A DNA stretch of 64,000 bases from Kitasatospora azatica KCTC 9699 (GTDB taxonomy: Bacteria; Actinomycetota; Actinomycetes; Streptomycetales; Streptomycetaceae). Each line of letters begins with the position of its first letter. The first letter of the stretch is position 1. Below, piece after piece: positions 39,833-42,490 of the stretch. Location of the stretch: assembly GCF_000744785.1 (NCBI RefSeq), contig NZ_JQMO01000002.1, positions 992,001 through 1,056,000 of the forward strand, read 5' to 3'. The notes beneath the pieces were generated by a model, which saw only the letters and a program-made list of their open reading frames with translations, was not told where the DNA came from and searched no databases. Made by a program: the position numbers and the translations under genes.

Positions 39833-39888
39833 GGTGGGTCAGACGCGGTGGGTCGAACGCGGTGCGTCGGACGCGGTGGGTCAGACCT
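39833..39888. repeat. Four tandem copies of a 14-bp unit (GGTGGGTCAGACGC-like)
   Basis: Copies at 39833, 39847, 39861 and 39875 differ by one to three bases. The last copy covers the stop codon of the roadblock gene at 39881-40255. Slipped-strand duplication is the simplest origin. Confidence 0.65.
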
Positions 39889-40255
39889 CGAGCTCGGCCT
39901 CGATCTTGGACAGCTGGTGGCGGGCCATCGCGAGGTTGGCCCGGCGCTTGTCCAGGGCGAGGTAGAGGAACAGGCCCTTGCTGGTGCGGCTGGTCAGCGG
40001 ACGGATCAGGTGGTACTGGCTGCTGAGGGTGATCAGGATGTCCTCGATGCCGTCGTTGAGACCGAGCATCTCCATGGTGCGCATCTTCGCGCGGACCACG
40101 TCGGTGTTCCCGGCAGCGGCCACGGTCAGGTCAAGGCCGCCACCGCCGTCCACGGTGCCGAGCGCCATGCCGCTGGTGTAGTCGACCAGGGCGGCGCCGA
40201 TCGCGCCGTCCACGACGGTCATGGTCTGGCGAAGGGTGTTCTCAACGTCTGCCAT
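39881..40255 (-). CDS. Roadblock/LC7-domain protein (last gene of the operon)
   Basis: The 124-residue protein carries one roadblock/LC7 fold: VDGAIGAALVDYTSGMALG, then MLGLNDGIEDILITLSSQYH and LIRPLTSRTSKGLFLYLALD. In bacteria such proteins (MglB, CvnB) are regulators of small Ras-like GTPases. It sits 52 bp after the preceding roadblock gene, in an operon where no GTPase is encoded. The residues before the stop overlap a 14-bp tandem repeat. The LIRPL and FLYLALDKRRANLAMAR parts are shared in character with the roadblock protein at 41745-42128 (LLHLWLDRTEANLAAAR), suggesting common ancestry. Confidence 0.85.
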   Translation of the reverse strand: MADVENTLRQTMTVVDGAIGAALVDYTSGMALGTVDGGGGLDLTVAAAGNTDVVRAKMRTMEMLGLNDGIEDILITLSSQYHLIRPLTSRTSKGLFLYLALDKRRANLAMARHQLSKIEAELEV

Positions 40256-40307
40256 TGGATCTCCATCGAGTGATGTGGAAAGGGTGTGACGGGAAGGAAA
40301 CGAGGAG

Positions 40308-40742
40308 TCAGGTCACGCTGGGCGGACCGAGGCCGACCCGTACCAGGTCGCCCACCCGCTCGGCGGCGCGGCGGGCCTCCAGGTGGAGACGGCCGACGCT
40401 CACGTCGGGGTGCGCGAGCAGGGTGAGCACGCAGATGGTGCCGGCCGCGTAGGTGGCGACGTAGCCGTGCTCGCCGCGGACCAGCGACTCGCGGAAGTCG
40501 CCCTGGCCGGTCGCCTCGGCGAGTTGCCGGGCCACGCCGAGGGTGGCGGCGGTGAGTGCGGCCAGGCTGTCGGGTTCGGCGTCGTGGGTGTCGTGGGCGA
40601 GCAGCAGCCCGTCCGCGCTGGCCACCAGGCCGCCGGCCAGGTGCGGGACGCGGCGTTTCAAGGTGCGCAGCTCGGCCAGCAGGGCGCCGTGCAGTGCGTC
40701 CAGCTGGCGCCGGTCGGCGCGCGGCCGAAGCACCCGCCTCAT
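40308..40742 (-). CDS. Roadblock/LC7-domain protein
   Basis: The 144-residue protein has an Arg-rich head, then RRVPHLAGGLVASADGLLLA and SLAALTAATLGVARQLAEAT, then RGEHGYVATYAAGTICVLTL, the fold order of roadblock/LC7 proteins of the conservon CvnB type. It lies between the DUF4388-like gene (35 bp gap) and the last roadblock gene on the same strand. It may bind a GTPase encoded elsewhere in the genome, or form heteromers with the two other roadblock proteins of this operon. The ATG at 40742 is the only well-placed start. Confidence 0.82.
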   Translation of the reverse strand: MRRVLRPRADRRQLDALHGALLAELRTLKRRVPHLAGGLVASADGLLLAHDTHDAEPDSLAALTAATLGVARQLAEATGQGDFRESLVRGEHGYVATYAAGTICVLTLLAHPDVSVGRLHLEARRAAERVGDLVRVGLGPPSVT

Positions 40743-40776
40743 GACGGTGGGTGCTGGGCTGCGGGCGGCCAGGGAT

Positions 40777-41748
40777 TCACAGTCGAGCCTCCAGTGCGGA
40801 TCGGACGCGGATGAGCAGCGCGGTCTCGGGGTCGTGGACGGACGGCAGGGGTGTCGTTGTCGGCAGCGGGGCGGCGGCCGCCGCCCGCCCGCGGCGCAGG
40901 GTCGCTCCGGGGACTCGGCGGATCGGCGCGGGCCGGTGGTGCTCGGGATCGGGTCCGCCGACGGCGGCCGGCGACAGCGACAGCGGCGGCGACGACAGCG
41001 ACGGCGTGACGATCAGCCCCGCCGCGGCCAGCCGGCGGATCTCGACCACCGTGGCGAAGGTGGAGCGGCCGAGCAGCCACGCCAGCTCGGCCGGGGTCCG
41101 GCGCCCGTCCACCAGCTCCAGGAGCTCGCGCCGCCGCCGGCTGCTCGAGCGGGCGGCGGCACCCGGGCCGCCGGCGCCGAGCGGGCCCCCGGCACCGAAC
41201 GCACTGCCCGCACCGAACGCACCGCCTACGCCCACACCCACACCCACACCCACACCCACCGCGCCGACCACCGGAGCCGTGTCCACCTGCGGCCACGGCC
41301 AGATCCGGTCGAGCAGCGCGCGCCGCCGGGCCGTCTCGCGGCGGACCGCGGGCGGGCTGACCGCCCGTACCGGGCCGAGCCAGTGGCGCACGCCCGGTTC
41401 GAAGCAGGTGGCGTGCCGGGCCGCGCCGAGCGCGAAGTAGGCCGCGTCGTAGAGCGTGGCGAGGTGGCACAGCTCCAGCTCGCCACGGGTCAGGCTGCCC
41501 TGTTCGACCAGCATCCGGCCGACCTGGTGCCGGGCGCCGAACTGGTCCACGGTGTGCCGCCAGACAGCGGGGGCGATCCGCCCGCAGCGGGTCAACAGCT
41601 CGCCGAGATCGGGGGTTTGCGGGCTCACCGCGTGGACCACGGCGCCGCTCTCCAGGTAGACGGTGCCGGTCGCGGTGTGAAGCGCACCGGTGGCGCGGGC
41701 GGCCGCCAGCTCCTCGGTGATCACCACCGGAGCGGCATGGGCGCTCAT
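40777..41748 (-). CDS. DUF4388-like plus winged-helix regulator in the roadblock operon
   Basis: The 323-residue protein has an N-terminal DUF4388/PATAN-like domain (TGALHTATGTVYLESGAVVH and VSPQTPDLGELLTRCGRI). A second helical part follows (GRMLVEQGSLTRGELELCHL), then a low-complexity V-G linker (residues about 173-205). Next is a winged-helix-like segment (LLELVDGRRTPAELAWLLGR, STFATVVEIRRLAAAGLI) and a disordered Ser/Pro tail. The start ATG overlaps the stop of the first roadblock gene by four bases (ATGA). Such proteins appear next to roadblock genes in actinobacteria and deltaproteobacteria. A DNA- or partner-binding role is inferred only. Confidence 0.65.
   Translation of the reverse strand: MSAHAAPVVITEELAAARATGALHTATGTVYLESGAVVHAVSPQTPDLGELLTRCGRIAPAVWRHTVDQFGARHQVGRMLVEQGSLTRGELELCHLATLYDAAYFALGAARHATCFEPGVRHWLGPVRAVSPPAVRRETARRRALLDRIWPWPQVDTAPVVGAVGVGVGVGVGVGGAFGAGSAFGAGGPLGAGGPGAAARSSSRRRRELLELVDGRRTPAELAWLLGRSTFATVVEIRRLAAAGLIVTPSLSSPPLSLSPAAVGGPDPEHHRPAPIRRVPGATLRRGRAAAAAPLPTTTPLPSVHDPETALLIRVRSALEARL
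41231..41260. repeat. Hexanucleotide simple repeat CCCACA, five units, inside a coding region
   Basis: Five copies of CCCACA (the last with one mismatch) encode the alternating Val-Gly linker of the DUF4388-like protein. Changes in copy number would lengthen the linker without shifting the frame. Confidence 0.8.
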
Positions 41749-42128
41749 CCGAGCACCAACTCCTCCGCCAGCGCCTGCAATCGGTACCGGGCGGCGGCCA
41801 GGTTGGCCTCGGTGCGGTCCAGCCACAGGTGCAATAGCAGGCGACTGTCGAAGACGGTGCCAACCAGGCAGAACAGGTGGTAACTCGCTTCCGAGGTGAG
41901 GATGATGTCGTGAACCGGGACCCGGTGCTCGCCCGGCTCGGCGAAGCTGCTGCTCTCGGCGGCCAGCCGGACCAGGTCGGTCGCCTCGGCGGCGGTGGCC
42001 TCGTGGTCGTCGACCGGACTCGCCCCGACCGTGCCCAACTCCAGCCCGCTCCCCCAGTCGAGGAGGCTCACGCCTCGTGCACCGGCGATCCGCATCGCCT
42101 CGGACAGGCAGTCGTCGATCCCCGGCAC
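41745..42128 (-). CDS. Roadblock/LC7-like protein, first gene of the operon
   Basis: The 127-residue protein starts at GTG 42128 with AAGGAG seven bases upstream; an ATG frame extension to 42191 is a Pro-rich stretch without ribosome binding site. It reads PGIDDCLSEAMRIAGARGVS and LLDWGSGLELG, then VPVHDIILTSEASYHLFCLV and LLLHLWLDRTEANLAAARYR, fitting a diverged roadblock/LC7 fold. It is coupled to the DUF4388-like gene by an ATGA overlap. Its role is presumably regulatory via a protein partner. Confidence 0.7.
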   Translation of the reverse strand: MPGIDDCLSEAMRIAGARGVSLLDWGSGLELGTVGASPVDDHEATAAEATDLVRLAAESSSFAEPGEHRVPVHDIILTSEASYHLFCLVGTVFDSRLLLHLWLDRTEANLAAARYRLQALAEELVLG

Positions 42129-42490
42129 TCGGGCTCCTTCACGACAGGGACAGGGCGTGGGCATGGGCGCGGGCATGGGCAGCCCAGGCACGAGGACGCG
42201 CCGGTAGCCACTCCCGTAGTCGGGGCGCTACTGCGCGTCGTGCTTCTGGGCCGGAAGGCTACTGAGCCAGGCATGCCTTATGACAATGCCATTGGCATAC
42301 CAGTGCTCAGAGCGATCGATTCACGCCATCCTGTCGGCAGCCCTGTCAGCAGCCGGAACCCCGTGCTGCCAGCGGCCCAAGCCCACCAAAACTGGCCACC
42401 GAAGGCGGGCAGTTGGCCGAGACTGACGCCCCGTCACGACATCGTCGGGACAAGATCTGATATGCCGTCATGGTCAGTGGGTCGGCTCGA
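42129..42490. other. Upstream region of the roadblock operon, with inverted repeat and a gene-loss scar
   Basis: No gene is recognised in these 360 bp. The stretch contains an inverted repeat ATGCCA-T-TGGCAT at 42286-42298, the presumed promoter of the roadblock operon, and at about 42482 the end of the ATGATCGAG start of a lost gene after the metallophosphoesterase. Confidence 0.45.
42286..42298. repeat. Inverted repeat ATGCCATTGGCAT upstream of the roadblock operon
   Basis: Six-base arms around one T, about 160 bp upstream of the first roadblock start. It is in a relatively AT-rich pocket and is a candidate operator. Confidence 0.4.

Follow-up and report, generated by a model that had tools for sequence, protein, structure and literature searches.

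In the genome of Kitasatospora azatica KCTC 9699, a four-gene operon encodes three proteins that we assign to the Roadblock/LC7 superfamily (RbA, RbB and RbC) together with a PATAN (DUF4388)-winged-helix protein, and carries no gene for a GTPase. The reading that we favor, to which we give about an even chance, is that the operon is a GTPase-less derivative of a PATAN-GTPase-RbB-RbC module, and that its products would form a roadblock complex acting in trans on CvnD, the Ras-like GTPase of conservons. Streptomycetes possess many conservon G-protein systems, some of which regulate development and specialized metabolism, and the flow of signals through them is poorly understood. A classical conservon consists of a kinase, a roadblock protein, a DUF742 protein and a Ras-like GTPase (CvnA-CvnB-CvnC-CvnD). 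A widespread, strongly conserved triple-roadblock operon with no GTPase of its own is a candidate for a shared regulator through which conservon systems could be coupled; our literature search found no papers on such an operon.

The window, i.e. the whole stretch of 64,000 nucleotides that was analyzed, corresponds to C2:992001-1056000, and the genome searched comprises 8.27 Mb in three contigs. On the minus strand, from position 42128 to position 39881, the ORF list gives RbA, the PATAN/DUF4388-winged-helix gene, RbB and RbC, in that order. RbA (41745..42128, 127 aa) is the first gene, with a GTG start and GGAG upstream. The ATG of the PATAN protein gene (40777..41748, 323 aa) overlaps the RbA stop as ATGA, and the coupling proposed for this gene in the first-pass annotation is therefore present. 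RbB (40308..40742, 144 aa) is an MglB/CvnB-type roadblock/LC7 protein, and RbC (39881..40255, 124 aa) is a highly conserved protein with a predicted roadblock fold; all four genes lie on the minus strand. A codon-usage gene caller, blind to the finding, recovered the same four genes, the sole difference being a downstream start for RbB.

The synteny survey suggested in the first-pass annotation was run on a named genome collection holding 69 operon loci, this window included. The exact RbA-PATAN-RbB-RbC order on one strand was found in 63 of these, indicating that the four genes do not stand together by chance and, with the two gene calls, bearing out the proposed operon. Its hosts are mainly Streptomyces and Kitasatospora, with further cases in Dactylosporangium, Asanoa, Actinacidiphila and Microtetraspora; a homologue of the PATAN protein is present in 67 of 70 Kitasatospora genomes, and the ATGA-type (-4) overlap between RbA and the PATAN gene is seen in 42 of 65 pairs. 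Over 43 sequences, mean column identity is highest for RbC (85%), followed by RbA (60%), RbB (54%) and the PATAN protein (37%). An attempt to derive a function from conserved neighbors failed, the commonest flanking family occurring in only 20 of the 69 loci; the four genes thus behave as an autonomous unit. In three loci (G057, from Kitasatospora, L099 and L117) the PATAN gene is cleanly absent and RbA-RbB-RbC are retained, and hence the roadblock trio is the core and the PATAN protein is dispensable. The first-pass suggestion of a separate signaling device with DUF4388 and roadblock domains at its center accordingly holds for the roadblock trio, but not for DUF4388.

The three roadblock proteins, which had been listed as LC7 proteins from the start, are recognized by different routes. 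RbB matches Pfam Robl_LC7 with 58.7 bits (cut-off 23), and its profile matches solved roadblock structures (best E 2.9e-18); by sequence it is a member of the Roadblock/LC7 superfamily. RbA and RbC have no match in Pfam or NCBIfam and are annotated as hypothetical, and the latter is identified only through its AlphaFold2 model (pLDDT 86, pTM 0.82), whose helix-2 strands-helix-3 strands-helix topology is that of a roadblock. Comparison of this model with 3kye, the crystal structure of a Streptomyces avermitilis roadblock protein, gave a Z of 17.4 (rmsd 2.1, 115 aligned), and Z was 17.0 for MglB and about 16 for LAMTOR2; MglB, MglC and LAMTOR2 share the predicted fold. Thus, judged from its model, RbC is a roadblock-fold protein of the same superfamily, although its profile matches neither that of RbB nor, credibly, any PDB sequence. 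RbA is recognized only by homology to RbC, of which it is a paralogue by full-length profile alignment (hhalign probability 99.8, E 9.7e-30, 33% identity). Among the nearest named relatives of RbC is Kitasatospora mediocidica, with an 87% identical RbC, and the relatives as a whole span four phyla. The recognition of RbC as a roadblock subfamily makes its function testable; no Pfam or NCBIfam model covers this subfamily, which is represented in four phyla and shows repeated linkage to MglA-type GTPases. Several small roadblock-fold proteins in one scaffold also recall Ragulator (LAMTOR), as does the Z value with LAMTOR2; this is an analogy of fold only and does not imply shared function or descent.

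The PATAN protein consists of an N-terminal PATAN/DUF4388-like domain, a disordered linker, a winged helix and a conserved C-terminal helix. Its description in the first-pass annotation as a DUF4388-like winged-helix protein is upheld for the winged helix, which is predicted, as is the disorder of the linker, in a model with a pLDDT of 79; the match to DUF4388 (PF14332) is 22.6 bits, slightly below the 25-bit cut-off, and reaches 58.8 bits in the L219 relative. The winged helix matches that of CvnC/DUF742 (hhalign probability 85.5, E 5.7e-6), and two controls, the N-terminal domain and RbC, showed no match to the CvnC winged helix. Searched against the PDB, the whole model gave no confident match; RefSeq annotates the protein as a transcriptional regulator. 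Weak domain matches to MshE/PilF (Z <=4.5) prompted us to consider c-di-GMP binding by the PATAN helical insertion, and this idea was dropped; the residues that we take to form the MshE/PilF-type motif are not preserved in the alignment of the PATAN protein. At 41228-41262 of the window, a tandem CACACC-type DNA repeat encodes a Gly-Val run within the disordered linker.

No GTPase, CvnA or CvnC gene was found by profile scans of positions 25000-57000 of the window, and the same profiles found none beside the operon in the 69 named loci, in agreement with the first-pass claim that the operon lacks a GTPase; as positive controls, conservons were recovered in L158, L163 and L164. The operon resembles a conservon in having one MglB-type roadblock and one protein with a related winged helix. 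It differs in that the scans give neither a CvnA kinase nor a CvnD GTPase in cis, and in having two additional roadblocks from a different subfamily, a PATAN domain and an RbB that falls outside the CvnB clade. The likeness of RbB to CvnB and the CvnC-like winged helix could suggest an ordinary conservon that has eroded, losing kinase and GTPase, but RbA, RbC and PATAN are not conservon components, and neither the order kept in 63 of the 69 loci nor the 85% identity of RbC speaks for decay. Moreover, a midpoint-rooted tree built from 59 LC7 proteins unites the CvnB rows of conservons in a single group (100/99), from which RbB is excluded. We rejected erosion, and regard it as highly improbable, on the grounds of the RbB tree, the conserved gene order and the degree of sequence conservation. 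The first-pass annotation had held that a GTPase and a kinase gene in the operon of close relatives would reveal an eroded copy; no such genes were found in close relatives, and the presence of a GTPase gene in the operon of more distant relatives from the same phylum points to a single ancient loss, after which the operon was long conserved, and not to decay of this copy.

These distant relatives, L217 and L219, are deep-branching Actinomycetota in which a PATAN gene, an MglA-type GTPase gene, an unknown gene, RbB and RbC are clustered. Besides DUF4388 (see above), Pfam matches in L219 are ATP_bind_1 (45.3 bits), Ras (25.6 bits) and LC7 (67.5 bits). The full PATAN-GTPase-RbB-RbC set occurs in these two genomes only, and partial sets are found elsewhere. 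In L259, RbC, a GTPase and an RbB-like gene stand together, and in a divergent RbC group from one actinobacterial family a GTPase and a roadblock gene adjoin RbC in eight of eight cases, with an intact P-loop (GPLGVGKT) in the two GTPases checked. A Comamonas plasmid carries, in this order, genes for a winged-helix protein, a GTPase, LC7 and RbC, and a plasmid of Agarilytica (L333:3995-6066) has RbC, a BLUF light sensor, an MglA-type GTPase and LC7, possibly a light-controlled G-protein module. For the RbC relatives of Deinococcus and Hymenobacter, no GTPase was found in the stretches inspected. In the LC7 tree, the RbBs of the operon group with the GTPase-linked RbBs of L217 and L219 (99/80), and the GTPase-less RbBs are joined at a moderately supported node (98/74). 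The co-occurrence of the GTPase in deep Actinomycetota and on proteobacterial plasmids suggests that the streptomycete form most likely arose by a single loss (or move) of the GTPase gene and the gain of RbA, a second RbC-type gene, in an ancestor; we infer the direction, given the midpoint rooting of the tree and the moderate support for that node.

Related arrangements have been described. The relevant passages of Wuichet and Sogaard-Andersen (2014; PMC4316618) report a small clade of actinobacterial MglB homologues, all of them orphans without conservon genes at their sides, and mention PATAN genes in the vicinity of some genes for MglA; according to these authors, orphan MglB proteins had yet to be characterized. 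RbB fits this description, the gene set itself is not described in those passages, and the operon probably corresponds to that clade, judged by the description. In the PATAN-roadblock-MglA GTPase clusters (Makarova 2006; PMC4316618) a PATAN gene likewise adjoins a roadblock gene, but our operon lacks the GTPase and has RbC and RbA in addition. Such roadblock-PATAN-MglA-type GTPase clusters also occur in the deep-branching Actinomycetota L215, L218, L221 and L222, where they adjoin genes resembling those for type IV pilus assembly.

As distant relatives keep the set together with a GTPase, the operon probably controls GTPases that are encoded elsewhere. The genome of K. azatica has nine strong matches to the GTPase profile, each beside a conservon LC7 (CvnB) gene from an independent search; a dedicated orphan MglA-type GTPase was sought in the rest of the genome and rejected, all nine MglA/CvnD GTPases lying in conservons. 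Action in trans on CvnD is for this reason the mechanism favored by the genomic data, and of the two alternatives put forward in the first-pass annotation, action on the GTPases of other conservons is the better supported. Each of the 12 genomes searched that have either the GTPase-less operon or RbC and RbB as a pair contains five or more strong CvnD-type GTPase matches elsewhere. Two LC7 genes of K. azatica, L009 (G000:C2:841204) and L012 (G000:C2:964935), sit in loci that resemble conservons and that yielded no nearby match in the GTPase search; they are candidate truncated conservons.

The three roadblock proteins would most likely form homo- or heteromeric complexes. RbB, being MglB/CvnB-like, would be the member that contacts the GTPase, and RbA and RbC could serve as co-regulators or as a scaffold, comparable to the Myxococcus protein MglC in its binding of MglB. 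The targets of the complex would be the conservon CvnD proteins, the sole MglA-type GTPases of the genome, and the PATAN-winged-helix protein could be an adaptor or an input/output module that some species dispense with. A precedent for a co-regulatory roadblock paralogue that binds an MglB-type GAP is the binding of the Myxococcus paralogue MglC to the GAP MglB with 2:4 stoichiometry (PMC7949163). The MglA-MglB-MglC module of Myxococcus xanthus resembles the operon in pairing an MglB-type roadblock with a diverged paralogue, and the RbC model has the MglB/MglC fold; it differs in having MglA, where the streptomycete operon has no GTPase in cis, and MglC is not matched in sequence by the RbC profile. 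Action in trans agrees with the repeated co-occurrence of RbB and RbC relatives with MglA-type GTPases. Other points count against it. Every conservon already has a CvnB, which leaves no obvious need for a further roadblock operon, and RbC can exist without an MglA-type GTPase, as in genomes G351 and G124, which have a solo RbC and where no match to such a GTPase was convincing.

Copies of RbC outside the operon have varied surroundings. Most solo RbC copies in Streptomyces have no adjoining GTPase, which counts against action in trans on CvnD; in L163, L164, L267 and L268 a conservon is found no more than about 2 kb from a solo RbC, which counts in its favor. In L267:8690-13501 and L268:8077-13042, the solo RbC is followed by an ArsR-type regulator gene, and the nearby complete conservon has P450-like genes; a solo RbC that abuts an ArsR gene is also present in K. 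azatica (L153:8347-9119).

The region upstream of RbA contains a 13-bp palindrome, ATGCCAATGGCAT (42286..42298, minus strand), which may be an operator. It is conserved in the Kitasatospora group, with at most two mismatches in 14 of the 79 upstream regions scanned (some of the 14 being duplicate loci), compared with about 1% in shuffles, and TATGCCANTGGCAT has a single occurrence in this genome. A candidate promoter (TTGTCA, 19 nt, TAGCCT; 42256..42286, minus strand) lies in a conserved alignment block; it is a weak candidate, since a scan for consensus promoters did not report these hexamers.

A palindrome that occurs once in the genome, the predicted winged helix, the RefSeq annotation as a transcriptional regulator and the lack of a GTPase in cis, with none in the 69 named loci, would all suit a different reading, in which RbC/RbA-type roadblocks work without a Ras-like GTPase and a three-roadblock scaffold controls the PATAN-winged-helix protein as a DNA-binding or adaptor regulator. 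The occurrence of RbC in G351 and G124 would suit it as well. The three loci that keep the roadblocks without PATAN count against such a device, however, as do the occurrence of the related CvnC winged helix in GTPase systems and the repeated encoding of RbB and RbC relatives with GTPases, and we consider it a tentative and somewhat unlikely alternative; if true, the operon would be a roadblock signaling device that has lost its switch. The same two genomes are compatible with a complex that targets another NTPase, outside the MglA/CvnD family, and a general connection of roadblock proteins with the regulation of NTPases has been noted (Koonin and Aravind 2000, cited in PMC4316618); but no other NTPase is a conserved neighbor, even the commonest flanking family being limited to 20 of the 69 loci, which leaves this target quite unlikely.

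Two further arrangements were observed. A variant in Virgisporangium (L150:8001-9914) comprises RbC, an RbD-like gene, an RbA-like gene and RbB, without PATAN, and its RbA-like protein has a C-terminal tail that resembles that of CvnC. In Streptomyces, a second GTPase-less PATAN-roadblock operon (L211:7609-9491, L213:7314-10359 and L214:7521-9696) encodes a PATAN protein, RbB2 and another small protein, for which Pfam gave no match, and adjoins genes resembling oxyR-ahpC-ahpD.
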